64,000 nt of DNA, from NCBI RefSeq assembly GCF_023028225.1, contig NZ_CP095482.1, forward strand, positions 930,001 to 994,000, in the 5' to 3' direction. Below are positions 6,455-42,690 of this stretch, one piece after another. This DNA is from Halorientalis litorea. Its GTDB lineage: Archaea > Halobacteriota > Halobacteria > Halobacteriales > Haloarculaceae. The position numbers and the translations under genes are program-made. Position 1 is the first letter of the stretch. Each line of letters starts with the position of its first letter. The notes beneath the pieces were generated by a model. The model searched no databases and was not told where the DNA came from. It saw only the letters and a list, made by a program, of their open reading frames with translations.

Positions 6455-7810
6455 TCAGAGGTAGCCCAGACTCTCGAGTCGCGCTTCGAGGTCGACGTCT
6501 TCGAACTCGTCGGTCTCGTACTCGGCCATGTCGGCCTCGCCCTCGGCGAGCGGTGAGATGTCGAGATGTTCGCTCCGCTCGGCGACGGCGTCGATGACGG
6601 CCGTTGGGTGGGCCTCGATGGTCCGCTCGTCGGTCACCTCCGCACGGCGGCCGCGGACGACGGCACTGTAGGTGTCCTCCCCCCACGCCGCACGCTTGTA
6701 CACCGTGTCGCCGGGGCCGTCCTCGTAGACGATTGCCGCCGGGCGGCGGAACCGCTCGGGGTGGTCGGTGTGTTGGTCTGCCTTCGCCGCCGTCTGCCCG
6801 TCCGGCGGTGCTTGGTACGCCGTCGTCCGGCCGTTCTCGGGGACGAACCAGCCCGCGTCGTCCGTCGCGCCGTCGAACGCGGCGAGGACGGCGTCGGGGA
6901 AGTTCGCGAGCGTCGCGAGCGAGGTAACGGTCCGCCCCCGCGACTGGCCGGGTGCTTTCACCACGAGCGGGACGTGGAACAGTTCCTCGTGGGTCCCCAT
7001 CCCGTGCATGATGGCGGGTGGCTCGGCGGGGACGTGGGCCGGTTCGCCGAACCCGTCGCCGTGGTCCGCGGTGACGACGACGAGCGTGTCGTCCAGTTCG
7101 GCCCGGGCGTCGAGTGCCCCGAGGAGTCGCTTCAGGACGGCGTCGGCCTGCCTGATGGCACCGTCGTAGAGCGGTTCGAGGAGGCTCCCGACGACGGGCG
7201 GGATGCGACCACCGTAGACGCCCCACTCCCACTTGATCGGGAGTTCGTCGTGGACGCGCCGGGAGAGGGGGTCGCTCCACTCGTCGGACGCCTCACGCGT
7301 CTCGTATGGCGTGTGCGCGTCCATGAGGTTGACGCAGGCGGCCCACGGCCCCGCCCGGTCGTCGACCCACTCGGTGAACCGGTCGGCGTACCAGAACCCG
7401 TCGACGCGCTTCCGTGTCTCGTCCGGGTCGTCCACGTCCGTCGAGTCGGGCCGTTCGGTGACGACGTTCTCGAAGCAGGCCCGCAGGTTCGACGGGTGAA
7501 TCGTGAGATAGGGGTTCTCGGTGAACACCCCGGTGTCGTACCCCTCCCCGGCGAGGAAGTCGAAGACGGTCTGGCCGGGTTCGAGTCGCTCCGTGATGCA
7601 GAGTCGATGCCCCTCCGAGGGGACGCCGGTGAACAGGCTCGCGTGTGCCGGGAGCGACCAACTCGCCGTCGTCCGGGCCTGCGTGTACGTCGTCGCCGAT
7701 TCGGCGAACGTCGAGAGAAACGGCGTCGTCTCGCGCCGGTGTCCGAGCAACGAGGTATTCTTCGCGCGAACACAGTCAAGCACGACGAGCAACACGTTCG
7801 GCGCGTCCAT
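6455..7810 (-). CDS. Sulfatase-like hydrolase (alkaline phosphatase superfamily)
   Basis: A 451-residue soluble protein with the sulfatase start PNVLLVVLDCVRAKNTS, whose Asp binds metal, the active-site region WSLPAHASLFTG, and the second metal site TADHGDGFGE. The formylglycine position is Ser rather than Cys (S-x-P-A in place of C-x-P-S-R), which is common in archaeal sulfatase-like and phosphotransferase members. True sulfatase activity is therefore uncertain. There is no signal peptide, so it is probably cytoplasmic. Haloarchaeal paralogues often sit near glycan genes, but none are seen here. Confidence 0.85.
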   Translation of the reverse strand: MDAPNVLLVVLDCVRAKNTSLLGHRRETTPFLSTFAESATTYTQARTTASWSLPAHASLFTGVPSEGHRLCITERLEPGQTVFDFLAGEGYDTGVFTENPYLTIHPSNLRACFENVVTERPDSTDVDDPDETRKRVDGFWYADRFTEWVDDRAGPWAACVNLMDAHTPYETREASDEWSDPLSRRVHDELPIKWEWGVYGGRIPPVVGSLLEPLYDGAIRQADAVLKRLLGALDARAELDDTLVVVTADHGDGFGEPAHVPAEPPAIMHGMGTHEELFHVPLVVKAPGQSRGRTVTSLATLANFPDAVLAAFDGATDDAGWFVPENGRTTAYQAPPDGQTAAKADQHTDHPERFRRPAAIVYEDGPGDTVYKRAAWGEDTYSAVVRGRRAEVTDERTIEAHPTAVIDAVAERSEHLDISPLAEGEADMAEYETDEFEDVDLEARLESLGYL

Positions 7811-9250: not shown

Positions 9251-9459
9251 TCGTCGCTCCGCTCCTCGGTTGCGTCGCGGAAAACGTGGGCCACTCCGGA
9301 TTCGAACAACGCGAAGACGGTCCTGCTCACGATGTTGCGCGGGCTGCGACTTCTCTCGTTCAAATCCTCCTGGCTGCATCGTTTTGCCACTCACGAGGTG
9401 TTCGTGGCAAAAACGTGGGCCACTCCGGATTTGAACCGAAGACCTCCCGGTTATCAGCC
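9251..9459. repeat. Left copy of a 209-bp direct repeat ending in a tRNA-Ile 3' half
   Basis: This stretch is repeated in the same orientation and with only scattered mismatches at 18412-18620. On the minus strand it begins with the anticodon loop, anticodon 3' stem, T arm and acceptor 3' strand of tRNA-Ile (9413-9459). The 5' half of the tRNA is absent, so this is a fragment, not a gene. Inside the repeat, 129 bases away, a second tRNA-3'-end-like segment occurs (9281-9310). Around it are TTTT...AAAA hairpin-like units (for example the GCCAC/GTGGC pair at about 9383-9410). The pair may be the scar of an integration or of a larger duplication at tRNA-Ile. Confidence 0.85.
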
Positions 9460-18231: not shown

Positions 18232-18411
18232 TCGAATCAGAATTGCCGAATCAGACTCTAATAAACCCGACTATTAATACTATATATTTGTCTCGTACTG
18301 ACTGGTGTGACGTATGGGGCAGTCCGGGCGTGCGGCTCGCTCCGCTCGCCGTTCCGGGCTGTGACTTTCAGGGTACAAATGCCGTTTAGGAGCGTTTTCA
18401 CGCTCGCAGAC

Positions 18412-18620
18412 TCGTCGCTTCGCTCCTCGGTTGCGTCGCGGAGAACGTGGGCCACTCCGGATTCGAACAACGGCGAAGACGGTCCTGCTCACGATGCTGC
18501 GCGGGCTGCGACTTCTCTCGTTCAAATCCGTCCTGCGGCACGATGCGTCGCTCGCGGGTTGCGAGCGACAGAATAGTGGGCCAATCCGGATTTGAACCGG
18601 AGACCTCCCGGTTATCAGCC
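18412..18620. repeat. Right copy of the 209-bp direct repeat, overlapping intact tRNA-Ile
   Basis: This copy matches 9251-9459 and includes the 3' half of the intact tRNA-Ile plus about 165 bases downstream of it. As in the left copy, a second tRNA-3'-end-like segment lies 129 bases away (18442-18471). The remaining 9.2 kb between the copies carries the pst cluster. The last shared bases end in the tRNA anticodon stem-loop. Confidence 0.85.
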
Positions 18621-18650
18621 GAGCGCTCAACCTAACTGAGCTATTGGCCC
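18577..18650 (-). tRNA. tRNA-Ile (GAU)
   Basis: A 74-base cloverleaf: acceptor GGGCCAA pairs with TTGGCCC, the D arm is GCTC/GAGC, the anticodon stem CTCGG.../CCGGG closes loop CTGATAA with anticodon GAT (18614-18616), and the T arm is TCCGG/CCGGA with loop TTCAAAT. The discriminator base is A and CCA is not encoded. Its 3' half is duplicated at 9413-9459. Confidence 0.97.
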
Positions 18651-27349: not shown

Positions 27350-27410
27350 GCTCCTCGAAAACCGTGGGGGAAAACCCGGACCCTCACTTCGTTCGGTCCC
27401 GCGAACCGTC

Positions 27411-28389: not shown

Positions 28390-30183
28390 TCACGACGGGT
28401 CACGCCGGGCCGAGGACTGTCGACGGAAGTCGATGCCGATGTCGAGGTCCTCGACGGGCGACTTCACGGCGTCCTCGGGTGACCCATCGACCGCAGGGAG
28501 TCGAAGCGTGACGACGCTGCCACCGCGGTCGTTCTCGTCGAAGGCGATGGTCCCCCCGGATTCGGTCACTATCCAGTTGATGAGCCAGAGACCGAGGCCG
28601 CTGACGTGGTCCAGTTGCGTCTCGCGGCCGCGCAGCAACACCGCGCGCTCGCTCTTCGGGATGCCGGGGCCGTTGTCCGCGATTTCGACGACGATTTCGT
28701 CGTCCGCCGTCTCCCGAACCGAGACGGACACCTCGACGAACGTGTCGGGGTTGTCGTTGTGTTCGATTGCGTTCTCCACGGCGTTCGTCACGGCGGCGTC
28801 GACCAGTTCGATGGCCGACGCGTACGCACCGGGTTCGAGGTCGGTCTCGATGTCGACGGTCGGCCGGTCGGCCGTGACCTCGTCGATGACCCGCTCGACC
28901 ATCGCCGATACGTCCACGACCGTCGACTCGACGTTCTCGCCGTCGAGTGCTTGCTCTAGCTGTCGTACCGTTACGCTCAACTCGACCAACCCCTCGACGT
29001 GTTCCTTGATTGCATCGACCCACTCGGCGTCTGGGTGTTCGCGCTTGCCGAGTTCGGCGTATCCGAGGATGACGTTCGCCTCGTTTCGCAGGTCGTGGCG
29101 GAGCGTCCGGTTGAGCACGTCGAGACGCTGTTCGCGTTGGCGGCGTTCGGTCACGTCGCGGAGACTGACGAGGTGGCCCCGCAACAGGCCGCCGCCGCGG
29201 TGCAGGTCCGAGATGCGCACGTCGTAGTACCGCAAGTCGTCGTTCCGGAGTGCGATTTCCGTCTCGTACCGCCCGTCGGAGGCGTCCGCCGCGGCCTCGG
29301 CCACGTCGTCGAGGGCCGGGAGGGTCGCCGACAGGTCCCGGCCGATTATCTCGTCTCGGTCGATGCCGGCGATATCGCTGGCGTGAGCGTTGCAGTCGAT
29401 GACCGTCCGCCGGTCGTCGACGATGAGGACGGCCTCCGCGAGGTTGTCCATGAGTTCGTCGCGCGCGACTTCGCGGGCGACCGGAACGAGTTCCAGCAGT
29501 TTGTGGCGGTAGATGGCGACGAGAAAGAGCGCGGCACTGGCCGCGAACGCCGCCGGCGTCGGGTCGAACGGCGGGCGGTAGTACCCGCTGATGTACGCGG
29601 CGTTGACCGCCCACGGGATGAAGATTCCCAGCGCGATGGCGGCAGTCTGTCCGCGGTAGTGGTGGTCGGCGATGAGCAGCATCCGAACGAGGAGAAACGA
29701 CCCGACGAACAGGAGGAGATACGAGTAGCCGCTGTGGACCCAGAACCACGGGCCGAAGTCGAGCGAGAGGGCCGCGTATCCACCGACCTGCACGAGTTCC
29801 CGTCCCGCCCACATCAGGTCGTGGACGCCGTTCGTCCACGCGATGACCTGCGTGAGTGCGGGGACGACGAGCAAGGGGACCGGGCCGTACCGCGTCAGCA
29901 CCGTCCTGTTCCCGGTGTACTCCTCGGCGAAGTAGAGAAACGCGACGGGGACGAGCGCGATGGGCAGGTACGTCAGGCTATCGAAGAGGCGCGAATAGAA
30001 GAGATCGGCACTGAACATCCGTCCGGCAGCCAGCCCGACCCACACGGAACTCAGTGAGGTCAGCCACACCAGCGGTGCGACACCCGGCGTGTCGCGGTGC
30101 CGGTACGCGACGGCCCCGAGTGCCGCGACCACGACGGTAATCCCGACGTGGATGATTGCGTACGGGCTGTATTGCCAAACCAT
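28390..30183 (-). CDS. Sensor histidine kinase with 7TM N-terminus and PAS domain
   Basis: A 597-residue kinase. Residues 1-230 form seven membrane spans of the histidine-kinase N-terminal 7TM type. Residues about 243-345 are a PAS domain. The H-box is RTLRHDLRNE with His363, and the ATPase domain has N-box NAVENAIEH, G1 DNGPGIP (503-509) and G2 GLGLW (529-533). It is encoded ten bases upstream of a HalX response regulator in the same direction, so the two are a likely operon pair. Confidence 0.92.
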   Translation of the reverse strand: MVWQYSPYAIIHVGITVVVAALGAVAYRHRDTPGVAPLVWLTSLSSVWVGLAAGRMFSADLFYSRLFDSLTYLPIALVPVAFLYFAEEYTGNRTVLTRYGPVPLLVVPALTQVIAWTNGVHDLMWAGRELVQVGGYAALSLDFGPWFWVHSGYSYLLLFVGSFLLVRMLLIADHHYRGQTAAIALGIFIPWAVNAAYISGYYRPPFDPTPAAFAASAALFLVAIYRHKLLELVPVAREVARDELMDNLAEAVLIVDDRRTVIDCNAHASDIAGIDRDEIIGRDLSATLPALDDVAEAAADASDGRYETEIALRNDDLRYYDVRISDLHRGGGLLRGHLVSLRDVTERRQREQRLDVLNRTLRHDLRNEANVILGYAELGKREHPDAEWVDAIKEHVEGLVELSVTVRQLEQALDGENVESTVVDVSAMVERVIDEVTADRPTVDIETDLEPGAYASAIELVDAAVTNAVENAIEHNDNPDTFVEVSVSVRETADDEIVVEIADNGPGIPKSERAVLLRGRETQLDHVSGLGLWLINWIVTESGGTIAFDENDRGGSVVTLRLPAVDGSPEDAVKSPVEDLDIGIDFRRQSSARRDPS

Positions 30184-34909: not shown

Positions 34910-35539
34910 ATGGCCGACCACGCGAGCGGACGGCTCTCGACCGGGGTCGCTGGACTCGACGGGGCACTCGACGGCGGCGTCCCCGCGGGGAGTCTGGTCG
35001 CCCTCTCGGCGGCCCCGCGAGCGCAGAGCGAACCGCTCCTGTACGCGATGGCCGCCGCGAACCCGTCGCGGTACCTCTCGACGCTCCGCCCCGAGTCGGC
35101 GGTGCGTGACACCGTAGTCGCGACGGGCTACGAACCGGGCGAACTCGACGTGCGAGGAGTCGACGGTGAGTCCGTGCTGGCCGACCCGAAGACCCATCTC
35201 TCGGGGCTGGACCCGGGGTCGGTGCTGGTCGTGGACCCGACGACGGAACTCGAACAGGGGGAGCGAGAGCGGTACCGCGAGTTCCTCGACACCTGCAAGC
35301 ACGCGCTCCGAATGACCGACAGCGTGGGCCTCCTGCACTGTCACGAGAACACGCCGTCGGTCCTGCGCCGGGACATGACGCTCGCCCGCGCCGACCTCGT
35401 GTGGGACGTTCGGACGGCGGTCCGTGAGGGGACGCTGCGGACGTGTCTCGGGGTAACGAAGTTCCGCGGCGGCCAGCCAACGGGAATGTTCGACCTGTCG
35501 TTCGCGGACGGCGTGACCGTCACGCCGCGGACGGAGTGA
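34910..35539 (+). CDS. RAD55-like RecA-superfamily protein with degenerate P-loop
   Basis: A 209-residue protein that begins like RAD55/KaiC-type ATPases ([25 protein letters not shown]), but the Walker A that should follow (GxxGxGKT) is replaced by [10 protein letters not shown]. The Walker B strand is SVLVVDPTT, without the usual second acid. It is therefore probably not an active ATPase. Haloarchaea carry many such RecA-fold proteins, often called transducer proteins, next to signalling genes. Its stop codon lies inside a hairpin loop (35525-35543). Confidence 0.75.
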
Positions 35540-35543
35540 GCGG
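35525..35543 (+). other. Hairpin over the stop codon with GGACGGAGTGA loop
   Basis: CCGC and GCGG form a short stem around the 11-base loop GGACGGAGTGA, which contains the TGA stop of the RAD55-like gene. The loop differs by one base from the GARCGRAGYGA loop of hairpins at other gene ends in this window. Confidence 0.45.
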
Positions 35544-41820: not shown

Positions 41821-41905
41821 GCGAGGGTGGCCGAGCTTGGCCAAAGGCGGCGGGCTTAAGACCCGCTCTCTTAGGAGTCCATGGGTTCGAATCCCATCCC
41901 TCGCA
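41821..41905 (+). tRNA. tRNA-Leu (UAA)
   Basis: An 85-base class II tRNA. Acceptor GCGAGGG pairs with CCCTCGC, anticodon stem GCGGG/CCCGC closes loop CTTAAGA with anticodon TAA (41857-41859), a long variable arm (TCTCTTAGGAG) follows, and the T loop is TTCGAAT. The discriminator base is A and CCA is not encoded. Its 3' end is repeated 103 bases downstream. Confidence 0.97.
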
Positions 41906-41958
41906 TCTGCGACGAGTGGACACGAGAAGCGTTGCGAGCGGGGGATTCGAAGTACGGC

Positions 41959-41979
41959 GGACCGAACGGAGTGAGGTCC
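41959..41979 (+). other. Hairpin with GAACGGAGTGA loop in the tRNA-Leu echo spacer
   Basis: GGACC and GGTCC (one further C-G pair possible) close the 11-base loop GAACGGAGTGA. It lies between tRNA-Leu and the copy of its 3' end. The same stem and nearly the same loop occur beside mptA (27378-27399, minus strand). Confidence 0.75.
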
Positions 41980-41985
41980 GGCATC

Positions 41986-42008
41986 GGGTTCGAATCCCAT
42001 CCCTCGCA
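41986..42008 (+). repeat. Echo copy of the tRNA-Leu 3' end
   Basis: These 23 bases, covering the T arm and acceptor 3' strand through the discriminator A, are identical to 41883-41905. The rest of a tRNA is missing. Short tRNA 3' copies are classical attachment-site scars, but only about 80 bases separate the copies here and no integrase is nearby. Confidence 0.95.
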
Positions 42009-42609: not shown

Positions 42610-42636
42610 CGGGACCGTCGCGGAACCGCCAGCATG

Positions 42637-42655
42637 CGCGGCGCGACGCGCCGCG
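42637..42655 (+). terminator. Perfect GC hairpin after the DUF5813 gene
   Basis: Nine-base arms CGCGGCGCG and CGCGCCGCG flank a single central base, a fully symmetrical GC-rich hairpin 28 bases after the stop. A T-tract lies further on at 42692-42696. A role in termination or mRNA stability is likely. Confidence 0.5.
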
Positions 42656-42690
42656 GTTCACTCGGCGCGACCATCGGGAGCGACGAGGTA

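Follow-up and report, generated by a model that had tools for sequence, protein, structure and literature searches.

GA-capped hairpins and structured copies of tRNA 3' ends behind haloarchaeal genes

Hairpins and tRNA genes of the window

The window, as the whole stretch of 64,000 nt analysed here is called, belongs to a haloarchaeal genome of 3.2 Mb. It carries two tRNA genes, tRNA-Leu(TAA) and tRNA-Ile(GAT), and a number of small hairpins that sit behind genes (Table 1). An Rfam scan of the window at the gathering score returned only these two tRNAs and no family matching the hairpins. A tRNA-Leu(GAG) proposed by ARAGORN at 29130–29221 (+) was rejected as probably false, being absent from the Rfam result and located inside an open frame.

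A preliminary description of the window had pointed to a recurrent 11-base loop, GARCGRAGYGA, on changing stems. All five exact loop sites that it named were found where it placed them, and a sixth, which it lacks, lies stemless inside coding sequence at 6570–6580 (−); these six sites compare with 0.75 expected from shuffles (maximum 3). The hairpin GGACC-GAACGGAGTGA-GGTCC in the tRNA-Leu spacer, at 41959–41979 (+), is present, although its stem actually has 6 bp. The stem near tRNA-Ile and the hairpin with one extra G just 3' of the mptA-type gene are likewise as described. The near-match around the stop codon of the RAD55-like gene has a perfect stem, but GG stands in place of the first GA. 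The loops at 9254–9264 (−) and 18415–18425 (−) indeed lack an adjoining stem; both sit in one common segment, TTYTCCGCGACGCAACCGAGGAGCGRAGCGACGA, which makes them related copies of something longer.

Table 1. Positions of tRNA genes, tRNA-tail units and GA-capped hairpins in the window
Feature	Position	Strand	Basis and remarks
tRNA-Leu(TAA) gene	41821–41905	+	ARAGORN, Rfam RF00005
tRNA-tail unit of tRNA-Leu, 103 nt from the tRNA 3' end to the end of the copy	41906–42008	+	
tRNA-Leu 3' end copied in inverted orientation, as the 5' strand of the long hairpin	41932–41951	+	Direct reading; predicted to fold with 41985–42008
GA-capped apical hairpin, stem CGGACC/GGTCCG, loop GAACGGAGTGA at 41964–41974	41958–41980	+	Pattern search, direct reading, covariation
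Final 24 nt of tRNA-Leu repeated directly (23/24 identical), as the 3' strand of the long hairpin	41985–42008	+	
tRNA-Ile(GAT) gene	18576–18650	−	ARAGORN 18576–18650, Rfam 18577–18650
tRNA-tail unit of tRNA-Ile	18447–18575	−	Inverted copy about 18512–18530, direct copy about 18448–18470
GA-capped hairpin CGGC-GAGCGGAGCGA-GCCG, about 230 nt 3' of tRNA-Ile	18333–18351	−	Pattern search
GA-capped hairpin GGACC-GAACGAAGTGA-G-GGTCC (one additional G); the mptA-type gene (PF02649) ends about 12 nt before it and GGGTTTTCCCCC follows	27378–27399	−	
Near-match hairpin GCCGC-GGACGGAGTGA-GCGGC spanning the stop codon of the DUF7125 (RAD55-like) gene, without the first G·A pair	35525–35543	+	

The fold of the tip and its conservation

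The whole genome of the window holds 88 GARCGRAGYGA loops against 33 matches to the reversed pattern. An excess of about 2- to 3-fold over the reversed control is seen in most Halobacteriales genomes, and the ratio is mostly about 1 in other orders of the same phylum. Since about one loop in two has no stem, and many of these stemless loops lie in coding sequence, the 11-mer by itself is not diagnostic. A separate arrangement, found behind a protein gene at 1480–1680 of locus L026 (about 1054940–1055140 of contig C1 in genome G000), consists of three tandem repeats of about 75 bp, in each of which the loop sits on an imperfect gaggc...gcctc stem.

When pairing was extended outward from the loop at the 85 distinct sites of the window's genome, 25 had stems of at least 5 bp, against 1.45 expected when upstream flanks were re-paired with downstream flanks taken from other sites. 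The loop with any triloop centre has 52 such stems across some 2.1 Mb from haloarchaea, compared with 0 of 64 for the reversed loop. In 704 kb of unselected DNA, 2×2 mismatches were searched for independently of the motif, between 2 bp on the inside and a stem of 5 bp or more on the outside. GA/GA, counted with its reverse complement, was the most enriched combination (29 versus 3.3 in shuffles); in most cases its inner pairs were GC/GC or AC/GT and the loop had three bases. Stems of at least 6 bp occur on 25 of 153 GA-cap loops, all 25 intergenic, versus 107 of 135,093 GNRA loops (0.08%), and none of the 50 GA-caps with a GNRA tetraloop has a stem. When every hairpin loop in unbiased DNA was surveyed de novo, at low statistical power, no single loop stood out. 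From the stem controls, the mismatch search and the GNRA comparison, the loop reads GA-RC-GNA-GY-GA. In its predicted fold, GARCGNAGYGA is a pair of tandem G·A mismatches followed by two Watson–Crick pairs (RC/GY) and a GNA triloop. This 2-bp mini-hairpin within the loop had been overlooked in the preliminary description, whose proposal that tandem G·A pairs extend the stem agrees with the mismatch result.

The pairing is maintained while the letters change. Position 3 of the loop pairs with position 9 in 73 of the 76 distinct stemmed copies (at least 5 bp) collected from about 2 Mb of haloarchaeal DNA and all sites of the window's genome, versus 68 of 96 stemless ones (p = 1e-5). Among the 52 stems above, 34 different inner 5-mers occur, as expected from the idea of a fixed loop on varied stems. 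In 13 homologous hairpins from tRNA-Leu, -Asp and -Ser tails of several genera, loop and flanks are kept and the stems vary (CGGACC/GGTCCG, CAGACC/GGTCTG, AAACGC/GCGTTT, AAATCC/GGATTT). Their gap-free alignment has 97.6% of cells paired and 7 pairs altered on both sides. The covariation score is 0.367 versus 0.149 after shuffling (0 of 500 shuffles reached it) and at most 0.048 with slid partners; kinship inflates such counts, and the slid controls retain it. The compensatory double substitutions and the 3–9 pairing show that the cap is under selection as a structure. The stem covariation anticipated in the preliminary description is therefore present, and the contrary outcome that it named, loops at random positions and no covariation, did not arise. 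Its phrase "selected RNA structure" holds in part: compensatory changes and the 3–9 pairing support selection on structure, but RNA as the molecule does not follow, since the GNA core is a known DNA mini-hairpin and the GNRA version is never stemmed.

Units that copy the tail of their tRNA

The hairpin at 41959–41979 is, in the predicted fold, the tip of a longer hairpin built of two copies of the tRNA-Leu 3' end, one inverted and one direct (41932–42008). This longer hairpin has a folding z-score of about −5, as RNA or DNA alike. The preliminary description missed this larger structure; in the tRNA cases the tip caps a unit in which the tRNA 3' end recurs. The tRNA-Ile and tRNA-Leu units of the window follow one common plan.

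Such own-tail copies lie downstream of 21 of 42 tRNA genes in the window's genome and of 18 of 41 and 14 of 30 in two other haloarchaeal genomes, the three representing different genera or families. In a cross-control that compared tails with the downstream regions of other tRNAs, 5–9% matched. The first tail copies begin mostly 73–150 nt downstream of the tRNA, and no insert between tRNA and copy exceeded 762 nt within the 1.5 kb examined. A pattern search shows these putative units to be nearly restricted to Halobacteriales: GGATTYGAA-N27..57-GGTTCRAATCC occurs in 39 of 43 sampled genomes of this order versus 1 of 204 others, and its reversed control in none. Of 30 loci sampled from the pattern, 28 lie 17–275 nt behind a same-strand tRNA gene, 26 of these with a tail match of 18–24 of 24 positions. 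Directly 3' of the tRNA, at about +10 to +30, units often open with another hairpin ("hairpin A", with a GAAC-N4..6-GTGA or GAGC...GCGA tip), which is common to different tRNAs (loci L153, L141 and L125).

The occupancy of tRNA genes varies between relatives. At 61 tRNA-Leu(TAA) loci, mostly located before a DUF5813 gene, 0–3 units are found, and the arrays sometimes mix families. A 107-bp unit is absent in Haloarcula sebkhae and present in H. argentinensis; the two species align in both flanks, with a 21-bp overlap from the tRNA 3' end. This indel may equally be a deletion between the 21-bp repeats. Tail copies resemble the acceptor of their own species (12.6 of 13 positions) more than that of other species (8.3 of 13). 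Unit interiors recur at different tRNAs and in different genomes; those at one tRNA-Glu and one tRNA-Arg locus, for example, are 95.7% identical over 47 nt. Alignment of these loci shows that the presumed units are either there or missing as sharply bounded blocks at the tRNA 3' end, that they can stand in tandem and that they belong to families common to different tRNAs. In the spacer behind tRNA-Leu of Haloarcula japonica (L288), the downstream flank follows the first half of a unit at the junction gattcgaac, which looks like a product of recombination at the inverted T-arm.

In the viruses searched, the inspected matches were unrelated to tRNA-tail units. The search of haloarchaeal plasmids for a unit returned only 26–27 nt of the tRNA-Leu tail, in Haladaptatus plasmids. 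Several of these plasmids carry this piece of the tRNA-Leu 3' end (L481, 3001–3027; L482, 3001–3026), which is possibly an attP.

Placement behind protein genes

The stemmed copies are intergenic in 70 of 76 cases, versus 13% of the sequence (87% coding), gene borders being approximate because the genes were called by a simple codon-usage script. For thirty of them, a same-strand tRNA gene lies at most 500 nt upstream. The intergenic copies that are not linked to a tRNA stand in sense with the upstream gene in 29 of 40 cases, versus a background of 39% (p = 2e-5), and 40% of the non-tRNA copies lie within 70 nt of the upstream stop codon, against an expected 17%. Both biases bear out the gene-end enrichment suggested in the preliminary description. 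TTTT follows within 40 nt downstream of 8 of the 29 sense non-tRNA copies, versus 10% background, and of 2 of the 30 tRNA-linked copies, which speaks against the GA-cap as an obligatory terminator.

The copies behind protein genes appear to come and go: when the DUF5813 gene was followed across 78 loci, the hairpin stood behind it in only 4. A conserved regulatory site behind DUF5813 orthologues was therefore rejected.

The window's genome has a second hairpin family, GCATNCG...CGNTTCAC, with 19 matches versus 2 for the reversed control. Of 16 hairpins of this family, 12 stand in sense behind genes and 12 are followed by T tracts, as counted by eye from the sequences; some members are GA-capped. 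One member, GCATGCGCGGCGCGACGCGCCGCGGTTCAC at 42632–42661 (+), lies 22 nt behind the DUF5813 gene and precedes a second hairpin with a GA-CC-ATC-GG-GA tip and then a T tract.

Interpretation

The sense orientation, the proximity to stop codons and the T tracts behind some copies suggest a role at the 3' end of transcripts as the likeliest reading. The explanation favoured here, the prospects of which are evenly poised, is that a haloarchaeal "GA-cap" is under selection in transcript 3' trailers and that tRNA-tail units spread via recombination at tRNA 3' ends. The GA-cap would be a sense-strand element of the 3' trailer: a stem of free sequence, the tandem G·A/A·G mismatch, the RC/GY pairs and the GNA triloop. 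Behind protein genes, it would fold in the transcript and form or protect the 3' end, possibly by stalling the polymerase before a U tract or by blocking 3'–5' decay. Behind tRNA genes, the cap would top the longer hairpin made of inverted and direct copies of the last 22–24 nt or so of the tRNA itself. Recombination at the tRNA 3' end may both spread and remove units and keep the tail copy identical to the host tRNA; the units would then resemble integrative elements, which exchange at the same place (PMC8371274), but would be geneless. Several observations count against parts of this explanation, among them the small share of copies with a T tract and the patchy occurrence behind DUF5813. 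A GNA triloop with tandem G·A pairs is especially stable as DNA, and the GNRA variant, which RNA would be expected to tolerate, is absent among stemmed copies, which counts against action as RNA. The mobility of the units has to reckon with the lack of any enzyme found and of copies on the viruses and plasmids searched.

A further proposal goes beyond the favoured explanation and has a somewhat less than even prospect of being correct: the tRNA-tail units may be new minimal mobile or regulatory elements. They would be non-coding, structure-encoded cassettes of about 100 nt, geneless and often GA-capped, that enter and leave tRNA 3' ends, acquire the tail of the host tRNA and stack in arrays.

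The selected form may instead be a hairpin of single-stranded DNA or a cruciform, read by a recombinase or transposase; the tRNA-tail hairpins would then be attC-like, and the other copies insertion scars or binding sites. We regard this as rather unlikely, though much about the units suits it. The core GCGAAGC, as described in PMC6582339 after Hirao et al. 1994, is an extraordinarily stable DNA mini-hairpin with a sheared G-A triloop, and the caps are GNA and never GNRA. The precise presence or absence of 107 bp, the different units in tandem at one tRNA and the families common to several tRNAs are also consistent with it. However, the non-tRNA copies prefer the sense strand and the vicinity of stop codons, and some are followed by T tracts, all of which suggests a transcript-level role; no recombinase has been linked to the hairpins, and the mobile DNA searched lacks them.

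It is improbable that the tRNA-linked hairpins are merely decayed att scars of ordinary integrative elements that left a partial tRNA copy behind. Archaeal integrases do favour tRNA 3' ends (PMC8371274), and adjacent tRNA remnants, partial tRNAs beside a full copy, are mentioned in passing for Haloferax gibbonsii (PMC7921747). However, decaying scars would not be found behind roughly every second tRNA gene of each of three genomes, with first copies so close to the tRNA, a conserved folded interior with compensatory changes and the same interiors at different tRNAs.

The tip may also be taken for a k-loop bound by the ribosomal protein L7Ae. This protein is universal in archaea, and the k-loop layout, stem-GA-7 nt-GA-stem, fits both the order of elements in the tip and the enrichment of tandem G·A pairs closing the loop. 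K-turns nevertheless require an unpaired 3-nt bulge by the G·A pairs, and none is present here; the covarying Watson–Crick pair between positions 3 and 9 leaves no flipped-out nucleotide beside them, which makes a k-loop very improbable. Chance, that is, accidental stems on a GC-rich 11-mer common in coding sequence, accords with the frequent stemless occurrences, but the flank, reversed-loop, unbiased-mismatch and covariation controls are all contrary, and for the stemmed copies this explanation is refuted, leaving it a practically negligible weight.

No description of the GA-cap, the tRNA-tail hairpin or its spread was found in the literature searched, a body that has most subscription journals outside its coverage; all that is already known there is that tRNA remnants beside a full gene have been noted briefly. 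In three genomes, roughly every second tRNA gene examined is followed by another copy of its tail that is structured and has precise boundaries, and the same hairpin tip is found again behind protein genes. Action of the tip in RNA, as the favoured explanation has it, would provide a definable 3'-end hairpin for haloarchaea; action in DNA would suggest that a recombination system reads structure at the tRNA genes. Either reading can be put to the test in genetically tractable haloarchaea.

Comparison with known systems

In the DNA mini-hairpin d(GCGAAGC), a GAA loop containing a sheared G-A pair sits on two G-C pairs (Hirao et al. 1994, as cited in PMC6582339), and GAGCGAAGCGA contains exactly GCGAAGC. 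The mini-hairpin is known as an isolated fragment and in aptamers, whereas the GA-cap adds the tandem G·A mismatch and free stems, is repeated genome-wide at gene ends and has inner pairs that covary between A-T and G-C. In Haloferax volcanii, hairpins lie upstream of 503 termination sites, and one of them, S12, located in a coding region, gave 59% termination in a reporter (main text of PMC7237163). These hairpins near RNA 3' ends of a haloarchaeon agree in kind with the GA-cap reading. However, the main text of PMC7237163 describes no common loop or G·A cap for them.

Integrative elements of haloarchaea and their att remnants at tRNA genes (PMC7921747; PMC3119063) share with the tRNA-tail units the direct repeat of the tRNA 3' end and the precise boundary at the tRNA, and tRNA copies elsewhere have been interpreted as att copies (PMC3119063; PMC9897764). 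As in an att pair, a direct repeat of the tRNA 3' end bounds the units. Integrative elements, however, span kilobases with an integrase and other genes, whereas here the copy is mostly 75–150 nt away and the units, which follow roughly every second tRNA gene, are structured and non-coding. No integrase or genes lie between the repeats, and 73–150 nt are too short for genes.

The R boxes of integron attC sites follow the consensus RYYYAAC/GTTRRRY. The arms of the units read TTYGAA and TTCRAA (GTTCRAAT), one base off this box as commonly given. Integron attC sites and archaeal cassette arrays (PMC9668308) resemble the units in their imperfect palindromes, in a structure that is kept while the sequence varies, in tandem arrangement and in precise insertion at a fixed site. 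They differ in that the tRNA-tail units are too short to hold a cassette gene and have a tRNA T-arm in place of the R boxes.

Like the GA-cap, bacterial REP and BIME repeats are small hairpins found behind genes. Copies of REP keep the sequence of their stems, whereas the GA-cap keeps its tip and lets the stems differ.
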